Part shown: piece after piece, positions 34,726-63,537 of the stretch | Position numbering within the stretch: the first letter of the stretch is position 1 | How the letters are laid out: each line of letters opens with the position of its first letter | IMG/VR virus record: IMGVR_UViG_3300021379_000425 | Coordinates: 21,253 to 85,252 of that record | Direction: 5' to 3' (one strand) | Length of the DNA stretch: 64,000 bases | DNA from: a virus | Program-made: the position numbers and the translations under genes | The notes under the pieces: generated by a model | What the model saw: the letters and a program-made list of their open reading frames with translations, nothing else | The model's database searches: none | Told to the model about the DNA's origin: nothing

Positions 34726-36234
34726 TCAGTAGTAGAATTGGGGTGGAGTATATGTTGGTTTTGCTATATCATCAACATCTTCCTGCATTCCGGTGAGTAA
34801 TTTGACGACATGTTCCATGTCCGGGTGGATATTTCCTACCATAGTGCCGTCACTTGTCTCTTCAAATGTGTGATTGCGGTCTAGCACTGCAAGGTCACGG
34901 CGCATATCTTCACTGATTTCGTTAGGAAGTTGTAGTTCACCCTTGAGCATACGCCATGCTAAGTCCATTGGTTCACTTTTTAGTACTAATTTTTCATTTC
35001 CATATTCATCAGTTTCTATTACATAAGCCCCCGATGATAGCATCATCTGTACTTGTGGGTCATTGCGGTCAACTTTAGTTGGTTCTGCTTGGACATTCAG
35101 TGGATTGACAGTATCGTTTTTTGCCCTAATGTTAAGCAAGTTTTGTTGTAGCGGGTGCTGTGCTTGAAGATATGTAGACCTCGGTGCGCCAGTTTCGGGG
35201 TCAATATCCATTCTACCGGCAAAGTTTTGCATCATTCTATCAGCACCTTGCCTGTAAATGTTTCTTGGATTGAATATATTAGTTAAATTTGCAGAAGATG
35301 AAACATCATCTCTACTGATTCTACCGCCCTCAGCGACTCTTTCTACTGCTCTTTGGTTTATTTCTTGGGCAGATGGTCCTTTTGATTCCATAAATTTAGG
35401 TGCAGAAACGAATTCATACTCGGAATCTCTTATTGGATGCCATTCTTTTGTCTGTCGATGACCAGTATGATGTTCTGCGCCTACTGTTATTAAACCGATA
35501 CCGCTTCCTCCATCTTCTGCTCTTGATGTTTTATGTCCGATTACATAGTGTGGTCTATCAATGCCCTCTTTAGGTTCATCAGTGGAGAGTCCGGGTACTT
35601 TCAAAACAGGATATTCATTGTATGTTTCATTACCCAGCCTTGTTTCTATTTTAGTGTTAAGATACTCTTTCAGTTCGGGATTTTTCTCTAATAAAATATC
35701 TGCAACTGCAAGTGCTACATCTTCATGAGAATAACCCTCAAGACCTTTTGGCATTTCTTGATTCGGTTCTATTCTCTTATCAGCGTTTTTAGAATAATGA
35801 TTTTTATCTGCTAAACCGACAGTGTGTTTTTTCCCTCTTTTCATTTGTGCTTTAATATTGTCTATTTGACTGTCATTCCACATGGCATCCCATTTCCATG
35901 CTTTCATCAAATTCCAAAGGATGTCCATCGGCTCACCTGTGCGTATTTCGCTACCGGCTTTTGCCGCTTGAGCCATCTGTTGATTTTGATTCATCATGTT
36001 TTGCTGTTGCATTTGTTGGCGGTTTGCCTGTTGCTCACCTACATTTGAAGCGATTTGTCCAGCAGTTAGAGCCTGTCCAGCCTTCGTGTTGCCAGCCTGT
36101 ACTGCGACCTTACCTACTTTCTTGGCGGCCTGTTTAGCACCCTGTACTGCCGCCTGCCTTCCAGCCTGTGTAGCCACTGCACCAGCAACCGCCTTTGCAC
36201 CGGCGATAAGTGCAGGAGGTATGAACGCCGGCAT
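34726..36234 (-). CDS. Virion protein candidate with Ala/Gly-rich N-terminus and two EPMD tags, 502 residues
   Basis: Residues 1-65 are Ala/Gly/Val-rich with regular Lys (AGAKAVAGAVATQAG, AKQAAKKVGKVAVQAG), an amphipathic membrane-active pattern seen in ejection proteins. The tag occurs at 101 (EPMDILWNLMK) and at 421 (EPMDLAWRMLKG). The middle is polar with several His and Asn. The gene is on the minus strand inside the plus-strand late block. A membrane-penetrating or internal head protein is inferred. Confidence 0.6.
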   Translation of the reverse strand: MPAFIPPALIAGAKAVAGAVATQAGRQAAVQGAKQAAKKVGKVAVQAGNTKAGQALTAGQIASNVGEQQANRQQMQQQNMMNQNQQMAQAAKAGSEIRTGEPMDILWNLMKAWKWDAMWNDSQIDNIKAQMKRGKKHTVGLADKNHYSKNADKRIEPNQEMPKGLEGYSHEDVALAVADILLEKNPELKEYLNTKIETRLGNETYNEYPVLKVPGLSTDEPKEGIDRPHYVIGHKTSRAEDGGSGIGLITVGAEHHTGHRQTKEWHPIRDSEYEFVSAPKFMESKGPSAQEINQRAVERVAEGGRISRDDVSSSANLTNIFNPRNIYRQGADRMMQNFAGRMDIDPETGAPRSTYLQAQHPLQQNLLNIRAKNDTVNPLNVQAEPTKVDRNDPQVQMMLSSGAYVIETDEYGNEKLVLKSEPMDLAWRMLKGELQLPNEISEDMRRDLAVLDRNHTFEETSDGTMVGNIHPDMEHVVKLLTGMQEDVDDIAKPTYTPPQFYY

Positions 36235-39820: not shown

Positions 39821-40081
39821 ATGGGTCGCATATTCAAAACCCCTTCCGATGACTCTACGGAGGCAACGCTTAGGGCTATGCATACCCAAAATACTCTTGA
39901 CACATATTACGAAAAAAGTTTAGGATGGATTAGAACCGTAATAATAGGGTTTATCGCAGTATTGATAACAAGTTTTTATGAATTACAAACAGGAAATTCC
40001 GTATGGGAGGGTACAGTAGAATGGTTTTACGGCAAGGTGGAAAATTTAGCGAATTTCTTATTCGGGTGGTTGTATGGTTGA
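39821..40081 (+). CDS. Small membrane protein, 86 residues
   Basis: One clear transmembrane helix (WIRTVIIGFIAVLITSFYE) and a hydrophobic aromatic C-terminus (ENLANFLFGWLYG). Five bases after the previous gene; its end overlaps the GTPase gene by 8 bases, so it is translationally coupled to it. Confidence 0.65.
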   Translation: MGRIFKTPSDDSTEATLRAMHTQNTLDTYYEKSLGWIRTVIIGFIAVLITSFYELQTGNSVWEGTVEWFYGKVENLANFLFGWLYG

Positions 40082-40790
40082 ACCAGCAGGTACGGCACTT
40101 GTTGGTGCGATGGTTTGGGGAAAAGCGGTCTTCAATTCATACAGGCCACGCAAGGTCGGCATTTACGGCGCAGGACTAGTTGGTAAAACTACACTTGACC
40201 GCTTTATGACAACTCCGGGTGAAATGGAAGAGATTGATGAAGAAGATAGAACAACACACCTAAAATTACTGGGTAAATTTCTCTTACCTAAACCGACAAG
40301 AAAAAGAGTAGCATGGAAAGGAGAAAAGAGAGTAGTCTTTTCATCCGATATAGGTGGACAAGAGAGATTTTGGAATCTATGGATAGATGATATGGTATCA
40401 AGACAAGTAGAGGCTGTTGTCTATGTATTTGATGATAGAGCAGTAAAAGGCGGTGATGATGCATTACAACAGATTGCTGGGTTCAAATATCTAGTAGACG
40501 CAATAGTGTACAAGCAGTATCGTTATCGTAGTTTGAAAAGTAAAATTAAAGGAAAAAGATATTCTCCAAAACTGATTATGTTAGTTGCTAACAAAGCGGA
40601 TAGGTTCTTTGACGAGACTGCCGCAATGCTTTGGGGGCAAGACAGAATAGGAGAACACAAGATATTCGACCCGTTTAGAGATGATTTGATTAGGCTACAA
40701 AAGAACGGTATACCTACAAGAAAATCTTTCATGGCTACAAGAATAGGGTGGAATGTTGAAAATACAATGGTAAGTCTTTTGACAACATAG
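40074..40790 (+). CDS. Arf/Ras-like small GTPase, 238 residues
   Basis: G1 loop GIYGAGLVGKTT (Lys38, Thr39), G3 SSDIGGQERFW (Asp92, Gly94, Gly95, Gln96), followed by the Arf-like W, and G4 MLVANKAD (Asn173, Lys174, Asp176). A switch I threonine may be in DRTTHLK. The D-x-GGQ form is typical of Arf, Sar and Galpha rather than translation GTPases. The N-terminal 20 residues (AGTALVGAMVWGKAVF) are hydrophobic and could insert into membrane as in Arf. An insertion at 145-165 is Lys-rich. It probably switches an assembly or membrane process with the two membrane proteins upstream. Confidence 0.75.
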   Translation: MVEPAGTALVGAMVWGKAVFNSYRPRKVGIYGAGLVGKTTLDRFMTTPGEMEEIDEEDRTTHLKLLGKFLLPKPTRKRVAWKGEKRVVFSSDIGGQERFWNLWIDDMVSRQVEAVVYVFDDRAVKGGDDALQQIAGFKYLVDAIVYKQYRYRSLKSKIKGKRYSPKLIMLVANKADRFFDETAAMLWGQDRIGEHKIFDPFRDDLIRLQKNGIPTRKSFMATRIGWNVENTMVSLLTT

Positions 40791-43700: not shown

Positions 43701-45757
43701 TGCCAATGATGGGAAGAGGTTCGGACACTCGTATGTACTCGCCCCGTAGCGAGTCCGACAAGATGTATTCATCGGCTAATGAAGACGAGAGTAAGTATAA
43801 TCCTGCGTCACCCGAATACAATGAGGAAAAGCGTGAGGAAAAGAAACGCAAAGAAGAAGAGCGCAAGGAAAGCCGTTCCAAAATAAAACATATCAAAATT
43901 CGTGCATCACAAGGTCTTGGTGAAGAAACCAAAGAAGAAGGGCTTGATGATGGCAACAAGCGTGATGATGAGCGTGAAATGGCTCTTCAAGGTGGTCCTG
44001 CCGGAAGTAGAGGTACACTACTTGACCTCGCTACTGGGGCGAAGAGTGGAACTGGAAGTGCAATGAGTCCGGGTCTACCTATTGCTATGAGCGAACCAAT
44101 GACTGACGCTTGGAGTGACTTGTTAAAGTCTAAGAAAATATCTCCGGGTATTGGCGCAGATGAGTCCGATGCTTTAGAAGAGAGAATGAGAAGGGCTGGC
44201 GAAAAAGTTGGAAGAGATTTCTCTCATTTAGGACAAAGGAGAGTAGAAACAGGTAGAAGTAAGCGTGGAGAAGTAAGTAGAAATTTTAAAACATCAACTG
44301 GTGGCACTGGTAAACTATACACAGGTCCAAGAAATAATCGTGCGTATAGAAGAGAACTGGCTGAAAAGCAAAAAGAGTTAGAGGAAGAAAGAAGAAAGAC
44401 AGAAGATTTCATAAATCGAACCAAAATACACCCCGGAGAGGAAAATTTTAGACCGGATAAAATGATTAACACTGATTCTATATCTAATTTACACGAATCG
44501 GGTTTAATTGAACCGCAAGATGTAGCAAGAGATACTGATAGAGGTGGCTATGCAAGAATAGAAATGGATGGCGACAAACCTGTTTCTACTGGTGTTGCAC
44601 CATCGGAATTTAACGACCTTAGAGGTGCGATGTCTATTGAAGAGGCTTTTGATAGAGCCGAAAGAGGTATACCAGTTATTGAAGTAAATCCCGAACACCC
44701 TGATATGGCAGATGTAGGGGATATAGAATCCGATATGACTGGTACATACATACCCGAATCGCCTAAGATGCAATTTGGTTTTCGTGAAAATCCTTACTTG
44801 AGAAATACTAAAACTGGTAATTTTGCTAGAGTAGATGCAACGCCTTCATTCCGTGGTATTCCGTTCAATGAAAATACATATTTCACAGCGAGTGAGCCAA
44901 TGGATAATGCATGGAGTAGTTTGTTAAAGAGAGAAACACCAAAGACAATTGCATCTCGAAGAAGAAGAGAAGCAAGACAACAATTCCGACCAAGCACAGG
45001 ACAATTCAAGACACCTCCGGGCGGTATGACACCGGAGGGTTCCACAATGCGAAGATTCAAAGCCCGTATGCGTGGTATCAAGGGTGGAAAGAAAACAGGT
45101 TTGATGAAACCTCACCTTTCTGTCGAGATGTCACACAGGGGTATTCAAACGAAGCAACCGTTGAGTAAAGACCCACAAAAGTACACACAATACAAAGGAC
45201 AATCCGAGGCAAGAAAGATTCTCGGTGGTGCAAGAACTGTATATTCTCCACATGCAAGATACGGTGCTAGGTCGAACATAGCAGGACCAACTGGTGCTGG
45301 AAGATTAAGCGGTGTCTTACCTTCTCAAAGAGGACAAATGACAAGACCTTCTCTAAGACAAATGGGTATAAGAAGACCAAGAATGCCTAGAGTAATGAGG
45401 CCACCAATGCCTCCACAACCAATGATGCCACAAATGCAATCATCTGTACCAAGTATGCCAGCACCTATCATGGCGAGCGAAGAAAGAGCGCACAGTGAAC
45501 TTCTAAAGGCAAACTTCGCAAGAAGAATGGAGTTGCTTGAATTGATGAGAAGGCTCATTCGTGCAAAAGAAAAGGAAGCAAAAATCAAGAAGAACATCAA
45601 AGGAACTGATGAAGCACTAGTACCCGGACACCCTGTTGGAGTAAGGGCAACTGATGATGAAGACCCCGATGGACCTACTGAAAACACAGAAACAGATGCA
45701 AAGTTGTTCGGTCTTGACCCTGCTCATATTGTATCACGCAGGGGGCATATGGGATGA
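43700..45757 (+). CDS. Virion protein candidate with two EPMD tags, 685 residues
   Basis: Highly charged, with a Glu/Lys/Arg coil near 40-60 (EEKREEKKRKEEERKESRSK). Tags occur at 132 (SEPMTDAWSDLLKS) and 399 (SEPMDNAWSSLLKR). The C-terminal third is Arg/Pro/Met-rich (MRPPMPPQPMMPQM) and ends with Asp/Glu. Mostly disordered, DNA-binding composition. Likely an internal or scaffold protein; the two tags divide it into three parts of about 130, 270 and 285 residues. Confidence 0.6.
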   Translation: MPMMGRGSDTRMYSPRSESDKMYSSANEDESKYNPASPEYNEEKREEKKRKEEERKESRSKIKHIKIRASQGLGEETKEEGLDDGNKRDDEREMALQGGPAGSRGTLLDLATGAKSGTGSAMSPGLPIAMSEPMTDAWSDLLKSKKISPGIGADESDALEERMRRAGEKVGRDFSHLGQRRVETGRSKRGEVSRNFKTSTGGTGKLYTGPRNNRAYRRELAEKQKELEEERRKTEDFINRTKIHPGEENFRPDKMINTDSISNLHESGLIEPQDVARDTDRGGYARIEMDGDKPVSTGVAPSEFNDLRGAMSIEEAFDRAERGIPVIEVNPEHPDMADVGDIESDMTGTYIPESPKMQFGFRENPYLRNTKTGNFARVDATPSFRGIPFNENTYFTASEPMDNAWSSLLKRETPKTIASRRRREARQQFRPSTGQFKTPPGGMTPEGSTMRRFKARMRGIKGGKKTGLMKPHLSVEMSHRGIQTKQPLSKDPQKYTQYKGQSEARKILGGARTVYSPHARYGARSNIAGPTGAGRLSGVLPSQRGQMTRPSLRQMGIRRPRMPRVMRPPMPPQPMMPQMQSSVPSMPAPIMASEERAHSELLKANFARRMELLELMRRLIRAKEKEAKIKKNIKGTDEALVPGHPVGVRATDDEDPDGPTENTETDAKLFGLDPAHIVSRRGHMG

Positions 45758-50951: not shown

Positions 50952-50977
50952 ATCATAGGTCATTTGAGTGGTCATTA
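50946..50977 (+). promoter_or_regulatory. Putative promoter with GGTCA pair
   Basis: TATA-like GATTAAATC at 50946-50954, 27 bases before the ATG at 50977, so transcription could begin at the start codon. GGTCATTTGAGTGGTCA (50958-50974) overlaps the start site, matching the pair at 32726-32742 at 15 of 17 bases. Confidence 0.5.
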
Positions 50978-52263
50978 TGTGGGGTAGTATGTTAATCGGT
51001 GATGATTACGATACTCCGCTTATTTTTGATGACGAATACTCGGATTTTGTGATTAAAAATCTTAGTCAGCATCCAAACTTCGACCATACTAGTGTACCAA
51101 TTCTCAAGACTGATTTTGTTACAGTAGATGAGATTACTAGTCCAGCGAGCCTCAATGGAGATGGCTTGTTTGAAACAAAGTATGGAAAGAACGCAAACAC
51201 AATCATACGCATGTTTCGTAAGATGAGAAGGCACGATAAAATGAACAAAGCAGAATATGATGCAATAATAGAAGACATTAGAAGCATCAAGGCAATGGAA
51301 ATAGATAGTACAATTAAATCTCTATCGTGGTCTAATGGAATAGAACATGTAATTCGTGGAATAGGTATTGACGATAAGGCATTGAAATCACTACGCAAGT
51401 TCGGTGAATCTCGTAGTACTAGTTTACAAAAAGCATGTCAACAGTTTCTCAAGGCAATCACAGTTTTACAAATGCTCAATGAAAAGTCGGATTGGTCTAC
51501 GGATGACCAGTTAGAGTGGGTAGAGGCTAATCAAATGAAGAAAGATGCACAAAAAATGTGGAGAAACACACTTTCGCAGATTGATACTTTGAACAAACAT
51601 CAGCAAGATTCGCTATACTTCATATCCGATTTATTAGAAAAAGAAGGAGAGATGCAATCTCGTGAGATTCTTAGTAGAGGTAGTGGAGTGTTCAATAAAT
51701 TCATGACAACACAAAAAATATCTGCCCTTCTCAAAATGTATGGAGAAGAAGTTGATGTATACAAAACTGGTAATAGATTTGTAAAAATGGGTTCCAGTGG
51801 TTTGATTATTAAAGACCCAATGGCGTATGCCGCTGGTTTCATAGATGCTGACGGTAGTATTTTTATCAGCGAAAGAGGCGACCCTAGAGTTACTATTGTA
51901 GCCAGTGGAGAGAATGGTAAAAGACACTGTGAAGATTTACAAAAGATGCTTGGATGTGGTAGAATAGTTAGCGACCAAAAACTTGCTAAGAATACTGTCA
52001 AGCCAGTTCACAGACTTATTTTCTCATCAAAAGATTCTATTCGAGAGTTACTAAAAGGAGTTACACCGTTCCTTAGATTAAAGTCTCTACAAGCAAAGGC
52101 TATGTTGTCTTATATTGAAGAAAAAGATTCAATGCGTAAGACCGAGTTGTATCAGTTAGTAACATACAACAATTGGAAAGAACATAAAAGTAAAGCCGAC
52201 TCCCTACTTAATAAGTGGGGAGTTAATGCAGACACGATAGGTGGATACGCTGAGGGATTGTGA
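50977..52263 (+). CDS. Late protein with C-terminal LAGLIDADG endonuclease domain, 428 residues
   Basis: Residues 1-280 are helical and unrecognised. At 285-293 is the LAGLIDADG signature AAGFIDADG, followed by GSIFIS, RVTIVAS and the second half (LIFSSKDSIRELLKGV, LQAKAMLSYIEE). One motif means action as a dimer or a nicking enzyme. Position between terminase and portal is a typical homing-endonuclease insertion place. The N-terminal part may be an original virion protein fused to the endonuclease. A leaderless start at 50977 is preferred. Confidence 0.75.
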   Translation: MWGSMLIGDDYDTPLIFDDEYSDFVIKNLSQHPNFDHTSVPILKTDFVTVDEITSPASLNGDGLFETKYGKNANTIIRMFRKMRRHDKMNKAEYDAIIEDIRSIKAMEIDSTIKSLSWSNGIEHVIRGIGIDDKALKSLRKFGESRSTSLQKACQQFLKAITVLQMLNEKSDWSTDDQLEWVEANQMKKDAQKMWRNTLSQIDTLNKHQQDSLYFISDLLEKEGEMQSREILSRGSGVFNKFMTTQKISALLKMYGEEVDVYKTGNRFVKMGSSGLIIKDPMAYAAGFIDADGSIFISERGDPRVTIVASGENGKRHCEDLQKMLGCGRIVSDQKLAKNTVKPVHRLIFSSKDSIRELLKGVTPFLRLKSLQAKAMLSYIEEKDSMRKTELYQLVTYNNWKEHKSKADSLLNKWGVNADTIGGYAEGL

Positions 52264-53996
52264 TGGCAGAAGAAAGTAGAATTAACCGTTTTTTGTCTAC
52301 CTTAAGTAGACCGTTTAGGAGAAAAGATACTCCTACACCAACCATGCCGTTGTGGACTAGTGGTATTCAAGAACCAGTAATGGCTCAAGGTATCACCATC
52401 CCTGCTCTTTTTGCGGTCAGTAATGAGTCTTTGATTTTGAGAACTATTCTTGCTAAACTAAGACAAGAAATGTTTCGTAGAGGATACCACTGGGAAAAGA
52501 AATTCGCAGTAAAGTGTACACAGTGCGATGAAGAATATCAAAGCGAAGTAGACGAATGTAAAGAATGTGGAGGTCCAGTGAGAAAGCCCGACATTGATGA
52601 ACTTACATATCCTAAGTGGTTATTGAAACAAGAAAACAGCATGGAACAGTCTTTCATCAGTGTGCTAAATGAGATTGAATCCGATTTGAATATTGTAGAC
52701 GATGCATTTTTGATTCTAGTAAAAGAGTATTTTATTGACCCCGAAACCAAAGAAGTTGCTTTCTTTAGAGTCAAAGAAATTATGAGAGGCGACCCAATAT
52801 TCATGCGTATCATCGCTGACAAGCGTGGTGTAAGAGGTGGAAGGTATCGTACATGTTTGATACACCGTGACCAAGTGAAGACACACGCAGAAGACAAGAC
52901 TTGTGAAATATGTGGTGCTGAATTACACGATGTACACTATGCTAACATGGCCGGTAGTGGTAAGACACAATATTTCGTAGAGGGTGAAGTCATACATGTC
53001 AGTAAATACAAACCGTCTAAGTTGTACGGTAGAAGCCCAGTCAATACGATGTGGAGACAAGCCATGACTCTAACTGCGATGGATAATTACATTTACACCG
53101 CATATCAAAAGAGAAGAATGCCGAAAGGTATTGTTTCAGTAACTACCGATAACCTAGAATCAATGAAATCATTTTGGAAGGCAGTTGACGAAAAGATGGA
53201 GCGTGACCCTCACTATGTTCCAAAGGTTGGTATTGAATCCAGTACTGGTCGTGGTGGCGTTAATTGGGTCAAGTTCATGGATACGCTTGAAGAAATGCAG
53301 TATATTGCTGTAAGAGATGAAATACGAAACCGTATGGCGGCATTCTATGGTGTATCTAGTATCTTTATGGTAGACAATGGTAAATCCGGCGGATTGAACA
53401 ATGAGGGTCTGCAAATACTTGTTACCAACAGGGCAGTAGAATTCGGTCAAAAAGTCTACACTCAAGTTCTATTCCCAAGACTTCTAAGGCAGATGAATGT
53501 TGAGGATTGGAAATTGACTCTATATCCAAACGAGGAAGAAGATGAAATTACAAGACTAAGGCGTGATGAACAAGAATTGAATGTAGCACAGCGTATGGCA
53601 CAATTAGGATTCCAACCGGAGTTAGTAGAGGACACCGCTGATAGAGACATTAGATTCGTTTACAGGAAGCCCGAACCACAAGCACAACAAGCCGCACCTC
53701 CGGGTGGCGCACCTCCACCGGGTATGCCTCCGGGTATGCCTCCGGGTATGATGCCTCCAATGCAAGGGGCTGGTCCACAGATGCCTCCACAGATGATGCA
53801 ACAAATCATGCCTCCACCACAACCGGGAGGTCAAGGCATGGGAATACGAAATAGAGGTCCTGCCGCACCACAAAGAAGAGCATCACCCGGTAGCGGTGCG
53901 CCTGTGACTAGTGTACAACAAAGAGGTCCACAGCCATCCATTCAAGAAAGAAATTTAGAAAATATTATGCAATCGAGAAATATTAGAGGCGCATAA
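52263..53996 (+). CDS. Portal protein with zinc-ribbon insertions, 577 residues
   Basis: The core (about 120-470) has the usual portal elements: a wing, a clip region with RSPVNTMWRQAMTLTAMDNYI and a C-terminal barrel helix. Unusual: CTQC...CKEC at 85-102 and CLIH...CEICGAEL at 198-219, zinc ribbons not seen in typical portals. The last 90 residues are Pro/Met/Gly-rich (PPGMPPGMPPGMMPPM), probably disordered. It forms the DNA channel at one capsid vertex and docks the terminase. Confidence 0.85.
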   Translation: MAEESRINRFLSTLSRPFRRKDTPTPTMPLWTSGIQEPVMAQGITIPALFAVSNESLILRTILAKLRQEMFRRGYHWEKKFAVKCTQCDEEYQSEVDECKECGGPVRKPDIDELTYPKWLLKQENSMEQSFISVLNEIESDLNIVDDAFLILVKEYFIDPETKEVAFFRVKEIMRGDPIFMRIIADKRGVRGGRYRTCLIHRDQVKTHAEDKTCEICGAELHDVHYANMAGSGKTQYFVEGEVIHVSKYKPSKLYGRSPVNTMWRQAMTLTAMDNYIYTAYQKRRMPKGIVSVTTDNLESMKSFWKAVDEKMERDPHYVPKVGIESSTGRGGVNWVKFMDTLEEMQYIAVRDEIRNRMAAFYGVSSIFMVDNGKSGGLNNEGLQILVTNRAVEFGQKVYTQVLFPRLLRQMNVEDWKLTLYPNEEEDEITRLRRDEQELNVAQRMAQLGFQPELVEDTADRDIRFVYRKPEPQAQQAAPPGGAPPPGMPPGMPPGMMPPMQGAGPQMPPQMMQQIMPPPQPGGQGMGIRNRGPAAPQRRASPGSGAPVTSVQQRGPQPSIQERNLENIMQSRNIRGA

Positions 53997-54041: not shown

Positions 54042-54389
54042 ATGGACTTACTAAAAATGCACCCAATGGCAAGAAAAATGGAACTAGCACAGAAGGCTTT
54101 CCTTACTGCACTAGAAGACGGCGATGCACAAATGGCAAAGCAACAATTGACAGAAGTACAGAAACTCAGCGACTTTTTGGCTGGTGACTTGGAAAACGAA
54201 ATCGCAAAGAGCGATGTAGTTACCCCAGTTGGACCAAGAGACATATTCGCTGGTGGTGTACCAGTCATGAAGTTTGAAGAACCTTCCAATGTGCAGATTG
54301 AATCCGGTAACAGACTTGGATTCATGTCTTCTAACAGATTAGCAAAGAACTACAAGAGAAGTGCTGGTTCATACGGTAGAAGAGTTTGA
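54042..54389 (+). CDS. Small late protein, 115 residues
   Basis: Helical N-terminus (ARKMELAQKAFLTALEDGD, AKQQLTEVQKLSDFLAG) and a polar, basic C-terminus (NYKRSAGSYGRRV). Ribosome site AGTAGGGATAG precedes the ATG. A head-completion or scaffold role is possible. Confidence 0.55.
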   Translation: MDLLKMHPMARKMELAQKAFLTALEDGDAQMAKQQLTEVQKLSDFLAGDLENEIAKSDVVTPVGPRDIFAGGVPVMKFEEPSNVQIESGNRLGFMSSNRLAKNYKRSAGSYGRRV

Positions 54390-54399
54390 GGTGGACTAC

Positions 54400-54750
54400 A
54401 TGAGTGAAGAACCTAATGCGGCAGATTTAGTCGGCGTTCTTATCACAAAAATGGAGTCTATGGATAACACACTTAACATTCTAAAAGCAGAAAATGAAGC
54501 ATTGAAACAAATGATAAACAACCCAAAATCTCTCATTAAGAAAATGGGTCTTGTTCCTGTTTCTACTCCACTCACTGCTGATTTGACAGTAGACCCATTT
54601 AGAGGTGATGTAGGGCTTGATGATACTATCCTAAAGTCAAGAAATGATTTCTCATCTTTATCTAATGAGCAAGTCCACAGTATGTCATGGGAAGATATTC
54701 ATGAAATGGCTATAACAGCCAAAGAACAAGAAACAGGGGTGAAGCAATGA
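54400..54750 (+). CDS. Small coiled-coil late protein, 116 residues
   Basis: One coiled coil (NAADLVGVLITKMESMDNTL, LKAENEALKQMIN), then a polar tail with FRGDVGLDDTILKSRND. The ATG at 54400 follows GAGGTGG; an earlier frame overlaps the previous gene. Function unknown. Confidence 0.55.
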   Translation: MSEEPNAADLVGVLITKMESMDNTLNILKAENEALKQMINNPKSLIKKMGLVPVSTPLTADLTVDPFRGDVGLDDTILKSRNDFSSLSNEQVHSMSWEDIHEMAITAKEQETGVKQ

Positions 54751-55316
54751 AACCTAGATTTGAAGAAGCAACTTATTTGAAAAAGGCTCGTGAACTAGCA
54801 CTAAGAATAGACGAATTGGAAAAAGCCAAGAAGAACTGCCCCGAATGTGAGGGTAAAGGCGATGATTGTAAGTGTGATGAAAAATGCCCTTCCTGTGGTG
54901 ATAAAATGGACAAGGGCGGCTGTATGAAGATGGGATGCGGAGGCAAAATGGAAAAAGCCGAGCCGGGATACAAGGCTGAGAAAATAACTAATGTTAATCC
55001 TGCTTTCATGGCTGAATCCGGTGGACAAACCAAGACTGGTTATTTTACCACAAATGGAAAGACTATCGAAACAGAAGATGCTAAGAAAACAAAGAAGGGC
55101 AAGGAAAGTGCTAACATGGAGGCTCTTGCATCTGCACAAAACCCACATGAGGGTGGCGGTGTAGAAAGAGAGATTGCGGCTGGTGGAAAAGAGTTGAAGA
55201 AGTTTAGACCACCTACTATTTGTGAATGTGGTGCTACGCCTAGTACCGGATGTATGAGAGCCGAAACTCTTGGCACAAACATCAAGGCTTGCCCCCAGTT
55301 TAGACCGCTTCAATGA
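54747..55316 (+). CDS. Cys-rich late protein, 189 residues
   Basis: CPECEGKGDDCKC and CPSCGDKMDKGGC resemble DnaJ-type CxxCxGxG zinc modules but with other spacing; CECGATPSTGC lies near the C-terminus. Lys-rich elsewhere. It precedes the giant protein and overlaps it by ATGA. Possibly a zinc-stabilised virion protein. Confidence 0.6.
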   Translation: MKPRFEEATYLKKARELALRIDELEKAKKNCPECEGKGDDCKCDEKCPSCGDKMDKGGCMKMGCGGKMEKAEPGYKAEKITNVNPAFMAESGGQTKTGYFTTNGKTIETEDAKKTKKGKESANMEALASAQNPHEGGGVEREIAAGGKELKKFRPPTICECGATPSTGCMRAETLGTNIKACPQFRPLQ

Positions 55317-58300
55317 AGGCGGTGATGTGTCTGTCACAAGAACACTTAATTCATTGCACCAATGAACTACTCAAGTCATTGACAGACGGTTTTGAACTAA
55401 GAACATCAGCGGCAGAATACATTCTCGCATTTGAGAATATGAAAAAATCGCCTACCGATGGATTTTATTTAACGCTAAAAAGACAGGCAGATAGCATCAT
55501 CAAAGAAGAGGATGATGAGACATTCGTTGACATGGATTATGACAAAACTGAGGGTGAAGGCTTACTCCTAGCCACACATCATACTCACGGTGAACCTACT
55601 AACCATGTATGGAAAGATGGTTTAGCATCACCCGATGACCCTAAACATAGGATGTCTACATGGCCTTCTTATTTTCCTAAATCCATGCAACACTCTCACC
55701 AAACACAACATTTTCCCTTCCATGAAGCGAATCACCCATTATTGAGAACACATGCCGTAACTGGTATGCCTCACTTTGTAGAGATGTTACGAAGTCATTC
55801 TCTTGGTGGTAAAATAAAAGAAGAAAAAGAAATGGAGAAGGATTTCTTTTCCCATCTTCCACACGACCATCCTATCAAAGCAGGTTATACCGCTGGTTTC
55901 TTTGATAAAAAGAATATACCATTGATGGGTAATATACACATAAACGGTAGCACAGTGACTCATCAAGATGACATGTACGAGAGAGATTATGCTAGATGGC
56001 TAAAAGAAAATTCTTTCCAAGAAGAAGATTTAGTGAAGGAAGGATACAAACCTGACGACATTGAGAAAATTATGCGTGAAAGGCATTTTGATGATAGAGC
56101 AAAAGACTGGATTTCGGAAGATATAGACCCTTACAGCGGTCTTCCTACTGCTCTTGGACACATGGGGTACATGTTAGGTTTAGAATGGTTAAACCCCGAA
56201 GAAAGAAATGCCGTTTTAGAACATCTTGATGATGTAGGTGTGGATAAATACAAGAGAATTAAATTACCTAATGGTGAATCAATTCCAACGACTAGACTCA
56301 CCTACAATGCATTAATGCGTATGACACCCGAAATGAATTGGGCTATTAGACCAAATACTCACAAGGGTAGAAATGCACACATGTATCAAGAAAATAACGA
56401 AACAGATTACAATCAAGGAGAAGGTATCTTCCTAAGACAATCTTTGGGTACGCTATCACATGTACCGCTTGTACATATGGGCGGTGCGAGCATGTCCGAG
56501 ATTGTTCTTGACAAGTTGCATGAGATGTACGAAGTAGATGGTAGAAAAACACTTACACATATGCCTAAATTGGATTTACATAAGAATAAACCAATGGCAG
56601 AACTAGAGTGGGAAGAACTACAAGATGCTACTGCAAGACATTTCAAAAAGAACACGCCAAGAAGTCAACAGAAAATAAGAATGTCATTTGAAGACTTACT
56701 ACACTTAGGAGGATATGACCCTAACACTAGAGAATTAATGCAAGACCATCCTTTGTACGGTAATTTAGAAGAACCTGTTATTCCATTAGAAGACTTAGAT
56801 ACTATCTACCAAATGGCAAAAGATGGCGGTTCTTTGAAGTCTAAAATAAAAGATGTGAGAAAACATAGAGGATTTTTCACATCTGTATATGGACCACATC
56901 CCGATGAAGAAAAAGCACCCTATTGGAGAGAAGATGAATACGGTGATTTTACTTTTGGACCGGGCGCATTTTGGTCTTCACCTTTCCAAGTCAAGGGAGG
57001 TGCGGGAATTTCACTACCTACATACCTTGAATCAGTACATGCTAATACTCAAGATGAAAATGGTGACTCGTTTTTGTTCGATATTAGAGGTGAAAGTGAA
57101 AATTATATTCAACCTAGAGAGAATATGACATCGTTAATCAATCACTTTATGCCTGAGCGAACTTCACCCATAGGTAAATATGAACTAATATCTACGCCCA
57201 CTAAGGCTGGTATGTCTAAAATAGTAGGAGGTAAGTTCAAATATAACTACAATCAAGATTTGCTACAAAATATGTTATCACCTTTCAATACTTCTAGGGT
57301 TGTTGGTACAAGAGAAGGTATTACTGACAAGAACAATTACACTGAACATAAGTCTAGTCTTTCACCTCAGTATGAATATGCACTTAGAAACATGAATTCT
57401 ATGCAAAGAAAAGAACTGGGTAATCATAGAGAGCCTTCTAAGTTCCCAGTTTCTATTATACCTACTATGGTAGCAAAACCTGAGATGATGTATGGTGCTT
57501 CTACGAGCGATAGTAGATTACTTGAAAATGCACAGTTATCACACTTCATAGAAACTTTAGGAGGGCAAATGAAGCACCCTCACACACCTGCTGAAAAATC
57601 AATAATGTCTTACAAAGATTTGATGAGAGGCGATGAGGCTGTATCGGGCGGTATCACTAGAGATGATTTTACTGATTATATGGGATGGGGAGTTAAACTA
57701 CCCAGTTTCCAAAATCTAAAGAATCAGTTCATGAATGACAAGACATTGAATTCAGCACTTAGGATAATTAATGCAATTGCTAAAATAGAGAATACGAATA
57801 ATCCTAGTAAAATTTTGAATTTCTTAGAAGATGATGACAAGTTGTTAGAATTGAAAAATTCTTTAGGATATTCTGTAAGTGATAAGTTACCTATTGACTC
57901 GGTTTATTCTGCAATTGATGGACTTGCTAACACTATGAAAGAAAGAGGCGATGCGAAAAATCCTACTAGACTTGATTCTATATCACACATGCTAGGATTC
58001 GGTGGGGCTTTACCTATGTTTGAGCAAGAGACTCAACTCAATGATGAGATTGAAAAAATCAATAAACAATTAGCAGGTGCAGAAGACCCAACTACTGTTG
58101 AGATGCTGAGAGAACAATTAGCAGAAAAGTCACAACAACTACAACAAATTCAACAGCAAAGCATGACGAAAGTAATGGGTAAACCTTCAAGTCATTGGGA
58201 AATAAATGCAAAATATCTCAATGATATTGCGTCTAGTCACAGAAAATTAGTAGCCGAGGTTGCTCGTGATAAAATAGTACCAGCAATGTTAGAGGCTGAC

Positions 58301-61009
58301 CCTAATGCTTTCGATACCAGTAATCCTGCTACATTTATTGCCAACAATGCAAGAGCGTTTAGAGATGCTCAAAGATATATCTCGTCTGTACCTCATAGGG
58401 TACACGGTTTAACAGTCAAGAATTATGGTATTGGTACACAGATTAGAGAGAATAAAGGCAAGTCCTCATTCCACACAAATCTTGCACAGCATCTAAACAA
58501 AGATGGTACTGTGATAGATGGTAACATGAGCGTATCTCAAGTTCTTGATACGCTAGGTATCAAACCTTCTACTAAAGCGAATGAACACGCTAGAGAATTA
58601 ATCAATGAAAGTAATAAATTCAATACACCACTGATGGTTTCTACAATTGGTAATCTACTCAAGAACGGTGCATTCAAAGACATAAAAGGTGCAAGTACTG
58701 AACATCTTTTACAAAATGAAGAGTTACAAGTCCGAGAACTTGGAGATTTAAATAACGATGAATTATTTAATAGATTACTTCACGAAGAAGATTATCACAG
58801 TGCGATGGATGCTCTACAACCTAAACTGAGTGAAGGAGATTGGAAGAAGCATTACTCTCATCAGTTACCTAGTAGATTGAATTTATTGTTGAATCAACAA
58901 CAGTTTGGACACGATATGTTAGCCGCTGGTGTAGGTGCGATTAGAAATGATATTCACGGTATGAGAGATTTCAAACAGAAGGGTAAAGGTAAGACATCTG
59001 CACAGACTAAGAATCATTTAGACACGATAGTTCACTTCAATCCAACCGTTTTAGATGATGAAGAAGGTATTTTCACACCCGAAAGAAGTGTTGTGCAAAC
59101 TGCTGGTTTAATAGATAATCTTCCAGTAGGTGCGCCTAACCCTGCTCATGGTTCTTTGATGGACACATTTGACGCTGGTGGGCATCACAAAGCATACGAA
59201 TTGAGTCCTACTGTCGGATGTGAGTTCACTGCTGATGGACAGATTATCGCTGGTACAAATGTAGGCGATGGTCTATATCACAGTGTACCTCATGAGTTAA
59301 CCGATATGGTACACGGACAAGATGTAAGACAACAAGTATGGAGTAATGCACCTCCACCTGCTTATCTGTACAATGCACATCAAAGCATGAACTATGAAAA
59401 TTATTCAATGATGAGCGATAATCCTTCTTCTATCGCTATGAGTGAAATGACAGAATTGATTACATCACTCCTTGACCCCGATATTCTACTAACAAAATCC
59501 GATGAGGCTTCATGGACACCACCTGTAAGACCAATGCACAGAATCTTTGACATGAATGACTTAGAACATTTGAGAGGATTCAGTGGCTCTTGGGTAGTTA
59601 GTAAATGGTATGATGGAAAAAGAATTGTACTTGTAAAGAACGGTGAAGAGATTACTGCTTACGATGAAAACGGTAAAAAGAAAGGCTTGAAGAAAGCAAC
59701 TAAAGAAGCCGTAGAAAAACTAAATGACAAAAACTACACATTAGATGCTATACTTGGTGAAGAAGAATTGAATATTATAGACATCATCAATTATGATGAT
59801 AACAATATATCCGACATGCACATGCATGAAAGAATGAAGATTTTACGCTCACAATTTGATAGTCAAGAGAATGTGATTGTACCGGGTCCACACGATACTA
59901 GAATGACAGACAATGAGGGATTAGAAGATGCCATCAAATCTCTAAAAGAAGACCACGACAACATCCTACTAAGAGATAACAAGTCTACATACATGAAGGG
60001 CGAGCGAAGACATCCTAAGTGGGTGCTACTAAGAGAGGCTAGAGATTTCAACTTCATTGTACTAGATAGGAGAGGGAAAGGACCTTACACATACCAACTA
60101 GGCGCAGGACCATTGTTAGATGACAGTGGATTAGGTAATCGTGTAATCGAAATCAAGGGTAGTCACTACATGGATGTAGGAACTGCACACAACCAACAAA
60201 GAGCATTCAAGATAGGTGACATTGTTAGAGCATCTATTACTGGTGTAACTAAGAAGAACAGAAAGGAAAGACCTGTTTACAATGTACAATTCAAAGAGAT
60301 AGAAGGCGAAGGAGAAGGAGAAGGTGCGGCAAGCACAGAATCTCTTGACTTACTCACTAAGTCCTTTGCACCTGTATTGCTACCACATGACATAGAAGTA
60401 AACGATTCTCATATTCAAATAATCATGAAAGATTTAGATGTAGTCAGTTATGAGTATGAGAAGTTCAATGATTGCTGGATGATACATTCTCCTACAAGTG
60501 CTGTTGGTTCTTTAAAGAAAGCAGACTATCCTGTGATATTGGCTGAGAGCCTTCAACCATACTGGTCGCCGCTTGCGCCATTAATGATAGAGGGATATTT
60601 GCAGAAGGCTGAGATGGATATGCCAAAGAAACCGACAGAAGAGCAAATGGAAGAGGGTAGTGCTGGTATCATAGAAGAAGATGATGAGAATAGGCTACTC
60701 AAACCAAACATGAAGAAGAAAGCATTGGAGTTGATGATTCGCACACTGGATACCATATCCAAAGAAAGAATGACATGGACTGGTCCAAAAGGCTTAGGTA
60801 TAGACATGGTAACACCCGATGAATCGCCTCGTGGACCTACAAAGTTGAGAGATGATGCCACCTTACCGGACTTTGATGGTGAAAGGGAAGAATCGGATGA
60901 TGAAGAAAAAAATAACCGTAAAGAAAGATTAAATCACCTAAAAATAAGTGATAGAGAGGGTGGAGAGGTAAATTTGGACTACGAAAACGACCAACCTATT
61001 TTATCGTGA
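55313..61009 (+). CDS. Giant late protein with C-terminal ATP-dependent DNA ligase domain, 1898 residues
   Basis: Residues 1-1390 form a long, mostly polar body with His-rich stretches (residues 80-150), a coiled coil at about 905-950, and no recognised domain. Residues about 1400-1650 match the nucleotidyltransferase core of DNA/RNA ligases: motif I SKWYDGKR (Lys1431 the adenylate acceptor), a beta pair KNGEEITAYDENG, motif III-like YTLDAILGEEELNIIDI, motif IV-like NILLRDNKSTY and motif V-like PKWVLLREARDF, then an OB-like region. The C-terminus is acidic. Its place between portal and protease suggests a virion protein that brings a ligase into the host. Confidence 0.75.
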   Translation: MKAVMCLSQEHLIHCTNELLKSLTDGFELRTSAAEYILAFENMKKSPTDGFYLTLKRQADSIIKEEDDETFVDMDYDKTEGEGLLLATHHTHGEPTNHVWKDGLASPDDPKHRMSTWPSYFPKSMQHSHQTQHFPFHEANHPLLRTHAVTGMPHFVEMLRSHSLGGKIKEEKEMEKDFFSHLPHDHPIKAGYTAGFFDKKNIPLMGNIHINGSTVTHQDDMYERDYARWLKENSFQEEDLVKEGYKPDDIEKIMRERHFDDRAKDWISEDIDPYSGLPTALGHMGYMLGLEWLNPEERNAVLEHLDDVGVDKYKRIKLPNGESIPTTRLTYNALMRMTPEMNWAIRPNTHKGRNAHMYQENNETDYNQGEGIFLRQSLGTLSHVPLVHMGGASMSEIVLDKLHEMYEVDGRKTLTHMPKLDLHKNKPMAELEWEELQDATARHFKKNTPRSQQKIRMSFEDLLHLGGYDPNTRELMQDHPLYGNLEEPVIPLEDLDTIYQMAKDGGSLKSKIKDVRKHRGFFTSVYGPHPDEEKAPYWREDEYGDFTFGPGAFWSSPFQVKGGAGISLPTYLESVHANTQDENGDSFLFDIRGESENYIQPRENMTSLINHFMPERTSPIGKYELISTPTKAGMSKIVGGKFKYNYNQDLLQNMLSPFNTSRVVGTREGITDKNNYTEHKSSLSPQYEYALRNMNSMQRKELGNHREPSKFPVSIIPTMVAKPEMMYGASTSDSRLLENAQLSHFIETLGGQMKHPHTPAEKSIMSYKDLMRGDEAVSGGITRDDFTDYMGWGVKLPSFQNLKNQFMNDKTLNSALRIINAIAKIENTNNPSKILNFLEDDDKLLELKNSLGYSVSDKLPIDSVYSAIDGLANTMKERGDAKNPTRLDSISHMLGFGGALPMFEQETQLNDEIEKINKQLAGAEDPTTVEMLREQLAEKSQQLQQIQQQSMTKVMGKPSSHWEINAKYLNDIASSHRKLVAEVARDKIVPAMLEADPNAFDTSNPATFIANNARAFRDAQRYISSVPHRVHGLTVKNYGIGTQIRENKGKSSFHTNLAQHLNKDGTVIDGNMSVSQVLDTLGIKPSTKANEHARELINESNKFNTPLMVSTIGNLLKNGAFKDIKGASTEHLLQNEELQVRELGDLNNDELFNRLLHEEDYHSAMDALQPKLSEGDWKKHYSHQLPSRLNLLLNQQQFGHDMLAAGVGAIRNDIHGMRDFKQKGKGKTSAQTKNHLDTIVHFNPTVLDDEEGIFTPERSVVQTAGLIDNLPVGAPNPAHGSLMDTFDAGGHHKAYELSPTVGCEFTADGQIIAGTNVGDGLYHSVPHELTDMVHGQDVRQQVWSNAPPPAYLYNAHQSMNYENYSMMSDNPSSIAMSEMTELITSLLDPDILLTKSDEASWTPPVRPMHRIFDMNDLEHLRGFSGSWVVSKWYDGKRIVLVKNGEEITAYDENGKKKGLKKATKEAVEKLNDKNYTLDAILGEEELNIIDIINYDDNNISDMHMHERMKILRSQFDSQENVIVPGPHDTRMTDNEGLEDAIKSLKEDHDNILLRDNKSTYMKGERRHPKWVLLREARDFNFIVLDRRGKGPYTYQLGAGPLLDDSGLGNRVIEIKGSHYMDVGTAHNQQRAFKIGDIVRASITGVTKKNRKERPVYNVQFKEIEGEGEGEGAASTESLDLLTKSFAPVLLPHDIEVNDSHIQIIMKDLDVVSYEYEKFNDCWMIHSPTSAVGSLKKADYPVILAESLQPYWSPLAPLMIEGYLQKAEMDMPKKPTEEQMEEGSAGIIEEDDENRLLKPNMKKKALELMIRTLDTISKERMTWTGPKGLGIDMVTPDESPRGPTKLRDDATLPDFDGEREESDDEEKNNRKERLNHLKISDREGGEVNLDYENDQPILS

Positions 61010-61054: not shown

Positions 61055-62431
61055 ATGCTAACACTAAGAAACCCCGAATCCGGTATTGCTCTCGTTAAGA
61101 GCAGTACAGATTTGGTTGTTGCTGGCTATGCGTCAGTAGAGTTAGTAGACAAGCAAGGCGACTTGATTACTCGTGGTGCTTTGAAAGATGCCTTTGATGG
61201 CTTCATGAAGAGCGAGAAGTATAGAAATGTTCAACTTGCACACTCAAACATACAAGTTGGAGAAGTAATTGATAGTTACATAGACTCCAACGGAAGAATG
61301 TGGAAATCCGAATGTGATGACGCAGGTATGTTTGTCGTAGTTAAACTCCGCAACGATATTGAGAAGGCTCGTGAAGTAGCCGCCGAAATCCGTAAGGGCA
61401 ACCTTCGTGGATTCTCTATTGGAGGTCAAGCCTTCAAGAGAGTTCGCAAGTCCGATATGGAAAAAGGCGACTACCAAGAGATTTCAAAAATGGAGTTGCA
61501 TGAGATAACTATATGCGAAAAGGGTATCAACCCGGAAGCACAGTTTACCATCTTAAAGGAGGATAATACCATGACAGAAACAACAGAAATTGGTGATTTG
61601 ATGAACAGGCTAGAAGCCCGACTTGACGCTATGGAGAAAGGCGAACTTCCTCCTGCTCTCCGTGAACATATGGAAGGCAAAAAAGAGTCTAAGGCTGACA
61701 AGACCGAAGAACCTAAAGAAGAAAAAGAAGAAGAAGAGAGTGACGAAAAGATGTACGCAAAAGGTGAAGAATACAGCGATGTCATTTCCTCCGAGTACCT
61801 AAACTGGATGGAAGACACACTAAAATCTGCTGGCGTAGATGTTGCTGGCGTAAGAACACACTTCGACAACTTAGAGAAGGCTCAACTTGGTGGCTTCGAC
61901 AACCCGGATGCGGTTGACGGTGCTGACTACTTTGCTGGACAAGTTAGAGGAAGAGGACAAGACAAAGGTTCTCCTTCCACTGGTGCAATCTCCGCAATCT
62001 CCGCTAGTGGTGGAAAAACACCTGCTGGTGCAATGGGTCCTGCGGAAGTATCCAAAGGATACCTAAACAGTGAAAATGTCAGTGATGCTGACATCGAAGC
62101 GGCTTACGAAGTTTACAAGCAAGCGGCAAAAGAACAACACTTCCGCAATGACTTGGAAAAATCATTTGCTAACAGATTCAACAATGAACTAGAGGTCGCA
62201 AAGGCTGAGGCTGAGAAATCTGCTTTCGATGCTCGTGCGCCACTAGCAGACATCGTAAAGTCAATCGAGGCTTTGTCCGAGAGAATTGACAACATGGGTG
62301 CAGTAAGCGGTACACCAATCGCTAAATCTGCATCTGCTTCAAACATTGAGATTCCTTCTACACAGGATATGGCAAATATGGGCTGGGATGAAGTTCACGC
62401 CCTTGCTAACAGAACATTAAGAGGGGAGTGA
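61055..62431 (+). CDS. HK97-type (S78) prohead protease fused to scaffold-like domain, 458 residues
   Basis: Residues 1-165 are the S78 protease: VVAGYASVELVDKQGD, catalytic-type QLAHSNIQVGE (His63), RGFSIGG (Ser121) and the ELHEITICEKGINPEA end typical of the family. Residues 180-458 are coiled coil and low complexity (EEPKEEKEEEESDEKM), a scaffold-like delta domain, with SSEYLNWMEDTLKS near 250. The protease would process capsid precursors during assembly. Confidence 0.88.
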   Translation: MLTLRNPESGIALVKSSTDLVVAGYASVELVDKQGDLITRGALKDAFDGFMKSEKYRNVQLAHSNIQVGEVIDSYIDSNGRMWKSECDDAGMFVVVKLRNDIEKAREVAAEIRKGNLRGFSIGGQAFKRVRKSDMEKGDYQEISKMELHEITICEKGINPEAQFTILKEDNTMTETTEIGDLMNRLEARLDAMEKGELPPALREHMEGKKESKADKTEEPKEEKEEEESDEKMYAKGEEYSDVISSEYLNWMEDTLKSAGVDVAGVRTHFDNLEKAQLGGFDNPDAVDGADYFAGQVRGRGQDKGSPSTGAISAISASGGKTPAGAMGPAEVSKGYLNSENVSDADIEAAYEVYKQAAKEQHFRNDLEKSFANRFNNELEVAKAEAEKSAFDARAPLADIVKSIEALSERIDNMGAVSGTPIAKSASASNIEIPSTQDMANMGWDEVHALANRTLRGE

Positions 62432-62436
62432 ATAAT

Positions 62437-63537
62437 ATGGCAAGAGATTACATAAGAAACATCAAAGACATGGAGAGATACTACTACGGTGCTGGAAACG
62501 CAATGGGCTACTCATACAGTGGTAGCGAATTGCTGAAAGCAGATGCACCTATGCTATCTACAACAGCAGGAACATACCAAGCAATCTACGGTAGAAAAGT
62601 TTGGTCACAACTAAACCAAGAATTCAACGCTTTCTCTATCCTACCTAAGAGGCCATGGGAAAGAAGTGGATGGAGAGTAGTTACAGCAAAGCCTTCCTTC
62701 TCAGTTGGAGGCGGTGTTGCTGAGAACGCTACACTACCTGAGACAACCAAGCCTACCTTCCAACACATTGCGGCAAAGCCTAAGACAGTTGTTCACACAT
62801 TCGACATGTCCGAGACAGCAATGTTCCTATCCGACAAAGATGACGGACTAGGCGACATTAGAGCAGTTCTAAAGGAAGAGATGGGTAAGCACCACGCTGA
62901 ACACATCAACCAAATGCTAACAAAAGACAAAGCAACAGTGGCAGGTAACGATTTCGAGTCACTAGACCGTGTTACCACTGGTGCTTCTGCTGGTACTGAT
63001 GAAGACATTTACTCCATTGATAGAGATGCAAACTCATGGTCATTGGCAGAACACAATGAGAACAGTGGAACTGACAGAAACCTATCACTAGACCAACTTG
63101 ACGACTTGTTCCAAAAGATTTGGACTCGTGGTGGAAATCCAAAGGTTATCCTAACTGGATATGACACACTAATGAGACTACAACAACTTCTACAATCTCA
63201 ACAAAGATTCATGGAAGAAAAGAGAGTTACACCTACCTACAACGGTGTTAAGGGTGTACCCGGTATCGAGGCTGGATTCATCGTAGCAACTTACAACGGT
63301 GTTCCAATCATTCCATCAAAGGATGTAGAATCTGACACAATCAGCAGAATGTACTTCCTAGACACAGACTACCTATACTTCTCCACTGCTATCCCTACTC
63401 AATACTTTGAGAGTGGTATCGAAACTGGCGACCCATTCGCAATCAACAGATTGGGTCAAGAGGGTATGTACCGCACAATGGGTGAACTTTGGACAACTTT
63501 CTTTGGAGGACACGGTTCAGTTCGTGACCTAAAGTGA
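62437..63537 (+). CDS. Major capsid protein (HK97 fold)
   Basis: A 366-residue protein just after the protease. It shows the order N-arm, spine helix (LGDIRAVLKEEMGKHHAEHIN), P-domain strands and A-domain (NPKVILTGYDTLMRLQQLL, TYNGVPIIPSKDV, RMYFLDTDYLYFSTA). This matches phage capsids of the HK97 lineage. The ATG at 62437 follows GGGAGTGA; the GTG at 62428 is an alternative. Forms the icosahedral shell. Confidence 0.9.
   Translation: MARDYIRNIKDMERYYYGAGNAMGYSYSGSELLKADAPMLSTTAGTYQAIYGRKVWSQLNQEFNAFSILPKRPWERSGWRVVTAKPSFSVGGGVAENATLPETTKPTFQHIAAKPKTVVHTFDMSETAMFLSDKDDGLGDIRAVLKEEMGKHHAEHINQMLTKDKATVAGNDFESLDRVTTGASAGTDEDIYSIDRDANSWSLAEHNENSGTDRNLSLDQLDDLFQKIWTRGGNPKVILTGYDTLMRLQQLLQSQQRFMEEKRVTPTYNGVKGVPGIEAGFIVATYNGVPIIPSKDVESDTISRMYFLDTDYLYFSTAIPTQYFESGIETGDPFAINRLGQEGMYRTMGELWTTFFGGHGSVRDLK

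Follow-up and report, generated by a model that had tools for sequence, protein, structure and literature searches.

What does a DNA ligase-like domain do at the end of a very large protein that is encoded among the head genes of a virus? The question is raised by an open reading frame (55313-61009, plus strand) in the window analysed here, a stretch of 64,000 nucleotides that forms part of a virus record of 85,252 bases. The frame runs uninterrupted through all of its 1898 residues, and the C-terminal part of its product is a pseudo-ligase module. The original prediction had located this gene between portal and protease and away from the replication genes, and so it is. The portal protein is encoded upstream (52260-53996, plus strand; PHROG 18178, E 1.6e-65; 30% identity to the portal of HCTV-5) and an S78-type prohead protease downstream (61055-62431, plus strand; Pfam PF04586, E 1.1e-9), next to a major capsid protein of the HK97/SU10 type (62428-63537, plus strand; Pfam PF17236, E 2.5e-13). 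Two small genes separate the portal gene from the giant gene: a small head gene (54361-54750, plus strand) and a gene of the same operon (54747-55316, plus strand), whose stop shares 4 bases with the start of the giant gene. The replication genes (DNA polymerase B, a clamp loader and a SNF2-type helicase) are found on the minus strand in the left half of the window, the virion genes on the plus strand in the right half. In all of the 80 loci that were fetched by the portal protein alone, a homologue of 1718-2003 amino acids occupies the same place. The giant protein has no match among the annotated phage records, and no relatives were found in cellular genomes.

The source of the sequence is a magrovirus-like archaeal tailed virus, in which the giant reading frame belongs to the head-gene operon. 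Three features fit the published description of the magroviruses, which infect Marine Group II archaea (PMC10768690): a gene resembling HMG-CoA lyase, a clamp loader, and a portal akin to that of the haloarchaeal tailed viruses. An endonuclease-like reading frame of the LAGLIDADG/HNH type (50968-52263, plus strand) lies between terminase and portal, the same spot at which HNH genes are found in haloviruses. Elsewhere on the late strand, a protein of 238 amino acids (40074-40790, plus strand) displays small-GTPase-like motifs (GAGLVGKT, DIGGQERF and NKAD), with no match in Pfam or the PDB.

Residues 1403 to 1683, approximately, fold like the core of an ATP-dependent DNA ligase. They comprise a nucleotidyltransferase domain of the ATP-dependent DNA ligase type that has lost its active site (residues 1403-1576; 59519-60040, plus strand) and an OB-like domain that is beta-rich in the model (residues 1577-1679; 60041-60349, plus strand). 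In a single-sequence Pfam search the complete protein matched PF01068 over residues 1478-1570 with an E-value of 7.5e-5, slightly below the curated score; searched alone, the C-terminal part reached 26.7 bits, above the curated 26.2 bits. The same family was found in 45 of 45 diverse relatives, each scanned singly, and the ligase models of NCBIfam also match. AlphaFold2 modelled residues 1406-1655 with block means of about 76-91 in pLDDT, and Foldseek places this model closest in the PDB to ATP-dependent DNA ligases of archaea and humans, the best match being the archaeal 4eq5 (E 1.6e-14). This confirms the nucleotidyltransferase fold that had been proposed from the sequence. The match to the ligase family is far above chance and, given the agreement of PF01068, NCBIfam and the structural comparison, the domain is a true descendant of the ligase fold. 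A ligase N-terminal DNA-binding domain was not recognised by Pfam upstream of the core. The OB domain has been lost in 17 of the 81 aligned rows, where the domain is shortened or columns are missing, a group that still keeps the gene.

Although the fold has been retained, the residues that carry out the ligase reaction have not. Motif I of the ligases reads K-x-D-G-x-R. The giant protein has a degenerate version, SKWYDGKR (59600-59623, plus strand), with two residues between K1431 and D1434, so that the lysine stands three positions before the aspartate and not two. Both phmmer and the profile-profile alignment by hhalign against archaeal ligases place the catalytic lysine opposite Trp1432 (59606-59608). 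Relatives were gathered by means of the portal and two domain profiles, and yielded 107 distinct domain sequences, 104 of which have letters at the catalytic column. This column holds W (45 sequences), Y (15), H (14), L (11), F, Q and M (6 each) and I (1), and never K; in two profile scans no relative with an intact KxDG was found among these 104. The neighbouring Lys1431 is a lysine in 57 of the 81 aligned rows and in 53 of the 104 distinct sequences. Only two changes on the tree of 104 rows are needed to account for it, which makes it a lineage marker and not a family-wide requirement. The original prediction had relied on conservation of this residue, which is not what the family displays, and K1431 as a conserved catalytic residue is ruled out by the family alignment together with the K-x-D-G spacing.

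The other motifs have fared no better. Among 63 distinct rows the Phe of motif III is replaced by I, N or V in 58, the position of the EGE glutamate is taken by I, V, T or A, the Gly of motif IV is gone in all and its Lys has become R in 60, and the lysines of motif V are L/V and R, or are missing. The protein of the window reads DN..R at motif IV and has L and R in place of the motif V lysines. According to the profile-profile alignment, about 35 residues have been deleted between the EGE strand and motif III. Some motif residues are invariant, namely the Arg in KxDGxR, the motif III Asp and, ahead of motif V, K1569-W1570; Arg1437 and the segment STY-G-KW have been retained. Of the earlier reading, in which SKWYDGKR and the motifs that follow form a ligase nucleotidyltransferase, the fold holds, whereas motif I is not a working one, since its catalytic position is Trp1432. 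Judged by these alignments, the domain is not an active ligase.

Could the protein nevertheless seal nicks or genome ends on entry, as a DNA ligase carried in the virion? Such a role, put forward in the original prediction, would require that Lys1431, shifted by one residue, or some other lysine acts as the nucleophile. The ligase fold has been kept, the invariant motif residues listed above remain, and K1431 is present in the clade to which the window itself belongs. However, about half of the distinct sequences lack K1431, the EGE glutamate and motifs IV and V are gone, and the group without the OB domain retains the gene, with selection on the nucleotidyltransferase domain that is as strong in its pair L071/L081 as in the others. 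With a catalytic position that is never K and the other motifs degraded, sealing by a virion ligase is not supported, and we consider it very improbable.

The loss of catalysis has not been followed by a loss of constraint. In those pairs that allowed a measurement, the nucleotidyltransferase domain has a dN/dS of 0 to 0.04, below that of the body in the same pairs, and the mean column identity is 55% for the C-terminal part versus 26% for the N-terminal part. The ligase-like domain is the most constrained part of the giant protein. Since a dead enzyme under strong constraint is expected to have another job and not to be decaying, the domain is probably a retired enzyme that has been retained for a structural or binding function. 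Compared with locus L007, the body shows a synonymous divergence of 0.82 and the C-terminal part one of 0.04-0.11, and the C-terminal region looks as if it had been exchanged recently via recombination.

The remainder of the protein gives few indications of function. No Pfam family was recognised in the large body (residues 1-1376; 55313-59440, plus strand), in line with the earlier description of a ligase-type fold fused to a huge uncharacterised body. Residues 12-900 gave a confident model (pLDDT 80, pTM 0.70), for which there was no structural match in the PDB or BFVD at E<=0.001. A MuF domain (PF04233) was detected by Pfam neither in the giant protein nor in the relatives of its N-terminal part, and typical polyvalent effector domains were likewise not found in the body, the ligase-like domain being the only one recognised. 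The protein ends in an acidic domain (residues 1685-1898; 60365-61006, plus strand) that is partly disordered in the model.

The head proteins of this virus group share a type of site that may connect the giant protein to capsid maturation. Conserved across the relatives are SELLK↓AD near the N-terminus of the capsid protein (the arrow marks the putative cut), LLK↓S/G near the N-terminus of the protease (here IALVK↓S) and xxKS near its C-terminus, and LLK↓S/G in the small head gene at 54361. The HK97 protease also cuts its own capsid protein after a lysine. The giant protein contains three candidate sites: NELLK↓S at K21 (55361-55378, plus strand; pattern in 63 of 81 rows), LLTK↓S at K1395, N-terminal to the ligase-like domain (59486-59500, plus strand; 39 of 81 rows, plus 10 at a neighbouring column) and LLTK↓S at K1683, C-terminal to the module (60350-60364, plus strand; full pattern in 75 of 81 rows). 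K1683 is at least 97% conserved, and invariant in A1. These three are the best-conserved hydrophobic-hydrophobic-(x)-K-[SAG] sites of the protein, and K1395 and K1683 bracket the ligase-like module. The number of LLK↓S-like sites is unremarkable (3 versus 2.5 in shuffles); it is their conservation, and their resemblance to the sites of the other head proteins, that argue for processing. The pattern of conservation suggests that the giant protein may be cut at LLK↓S-type sites during capsid maturation, and the two flanking sites give a precise prediction of the products.

Two observations concern related signals. The small head protein encoded at 54361-54750 and the protease (61055-62431) end in similar tails, MSWEDIHEMA and MGWDEVHALA respectively, with a conserved K-S/G site before each, which suggests a common tail that would be removed at maturation. 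In the region of K1395 some relatives carry SEPM..LLLK. A 13-residue motif, roughly [SG]EPM[DE]xAW[SR]x[LI]LK, is found in late proteins of the virus and its relatives, in one to three copies each: in the window at 44090, 44891 and 38699 (plus strand) and at 34977 and 35934 (minus strand), and also in L010, L012, L050, L058 and others. The motif has 6 PSSM matches in the genome versus 0.65 in shuffles, with 52 distinct instances, and possibly serves as a signal for binding or processing.

Taken together, we consider it rather probable that the giant protein is a minor head protein that is associated with the portal and whose C-terminal module, a ligase descendant without chemistry, has been kept as a binding or structural unit. 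The module, nucleotidyltransferase plus OB domain, derives from an ATP-dependent DNA ligase and has lost its chemistry with the AMP-accepting lysine, the EGE glutamate, the Glu-Gly of motif IV and the lysines of motif V. From its gene context the protein is likely to be located in the virion head; the position of the gene suggests that it becomes part of the prohead, probably in the vicinity of the portal, where the S78 protease would trim it at the LLK↓S-type sites, including the two that bracket the pseudo-ligase. The dead module would then serve most plausibly to hold on to DNA or to a second head protein non-covalently. What speaks for DNA as the partner is confined to the ancestry of the fold and to Arg1437 and STY-G-KW, which have been retained; the charge gives no support, as the domain is not basic (net -5 and pI 5.8 for the nucleotidyltransferase domain, net +1 for the OB domain).

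This lack of positive charge would suit a purely architectural role, in which the ligase fold would form an interface between proteins of the head or of the portal vertex, with no contact to DNA or nucleotide. A domain that is neutral to acidic, that tolerates the loss of its OB partner in one group and that is under very high sequence constraint, as expected for a fixed partner, is compatible with such an interface, but the Arg of KxDGxR and STY-G-KW, which belong to the nucleotide and DNA side of a ligase, have been kept and suggest that some ligand site remains. We regard this role as possible but doubtful. More specific, and unlikely, is the proposal that maturation cleavage on both sides excises the ligase core, which would act as a non-catalytic clamp on the end or nicks of the packaged genome at the portal, or as a mask after entry; such a clamp would put the ligase fold to a new use, one preserved throughout the virus group. 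To a similarly small degree we credit an effector of the polyvalent type, packaged and ejected with the DNA, in which the dead module acts in the new host, for instance by masking ends or nicks from repair or defence. The same slot between portal and protease indeed holds MuF, ART and zeta-toxin giants in related haloviruses, and polyvalent phage proteins are typically encoded with the head genes and injected, an inactive MuF nuclease domain among them having been proposed as a binding module (PMC5512222). However, the Pfam search of the body recovered no typical effector domain, and a single ligase-like domain is present in every relative, whereas effectors usually swap domains.

The reading that we prefer, a minor head protein with a non-catalytic ligase descendant, bears on the annotation of the magroviruses. 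Published accounts count an ATP-dependent DNA ligase, regarded as an enzyme, among a near-complete replication set (PMC10160649, PMC12999244, PMC10768690). A read-mapping result in at least one study places a magrovirus 'ATP-dependent DNA ligase' beside the prohead protease, citing the group A contig_156409 (PMC7318539). Going by its annotation and its neighbour gene, the ligase of contig_156409 very probably belongs to the same family. A separate canonical ligase was found in only 1 of 25 contigs of relatives (63-116 kb; metagenomic records, possibly fragments), namely at L088:1222-2361 on a contig of 102 kb, where a ligase with an intact KFDGVR lies beside a helicase-like gene and the pseudo-ligase is also present. 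The contig of the window itself has no second ligase: PF01068 matches only the giant gene, and neither an RNA ligase (PF09414) nor a NAD-dependent ligase (PF01653) was found. Because a separate ligase is so rare, the published 'DNA ligase' annotations, to go by annotation and neighbour gene, probably refer at least partly to the giant pseudo-ligase gene. In that case a catalytically dead part of a head-gene protein has been credited as the ligase, and most such viruses would need a host ligase; the virus studied here most likely depends on one for its replication.

A nucleotidyltransferase-like fold without the catalytic lysine is also known from the m3G-cap-binding domain of snurportin-1, where it is used for binding. 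Matches to PF21974 (snurportin-1) are weak, in 19 of 45 members with a best E-value of 0.017, and that of the window protein (E 0.19) is not significant. A literature search on snurportin with ligase, or on catalytically dead ligases in virions, gave nothing pertinent, and neither proteomics of a magrovirus nor an experiment on one of its proteins was found. With the archaeal ATP-dependent DNA ligases of Thermococcus and Pyrococcus (4eq5, 2cfm, 3rr5) the giant protein shares the nucleotidyltransferase fold, the order with an OB-like domain, PF01068 and several framework residues. Unlike these enzymes it lacks the catalytic lysine, the EGE glutamate, EG..K of motif IV and KxK of motif V, and its core is shorter and fused to about 1400 residues of a head-gene protein. 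It adds a conserved case of a DNA-repair enzyme fold that has been recruited into a head protein.

Portal-adjacent genes commonly encode minor head proteins, of which SPP1 gp7 is the studied case (PMC5576092). MuF proteins and SPP1 gp7 are likewise encoded after the portal and before the protease, whereas the giant protein is much larger, has a ligase-type fold and contains no detectable MuF domain. The family profile gave no detectable match to the MuF and giant proteins of haloviruses (gp113/114/115-type). In HVTV-1, HCTV-1 and HCTV-5 (L175, L178 and L177, respectively) the interval from portal to protease varies greatly and includes giants of the ART, MuF, sialidase-like and zeta-toxin kinds. 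Polyvalent proteins and these zeta-toxin/ART giants of the Druskaviridae resemble the protein described here in being giant late proteins with an enzyme-derived domain, encoded in the same interval; in the magrovirus-like group, however, it is one dead ligase module that is found throughout, in place of varied effectors.
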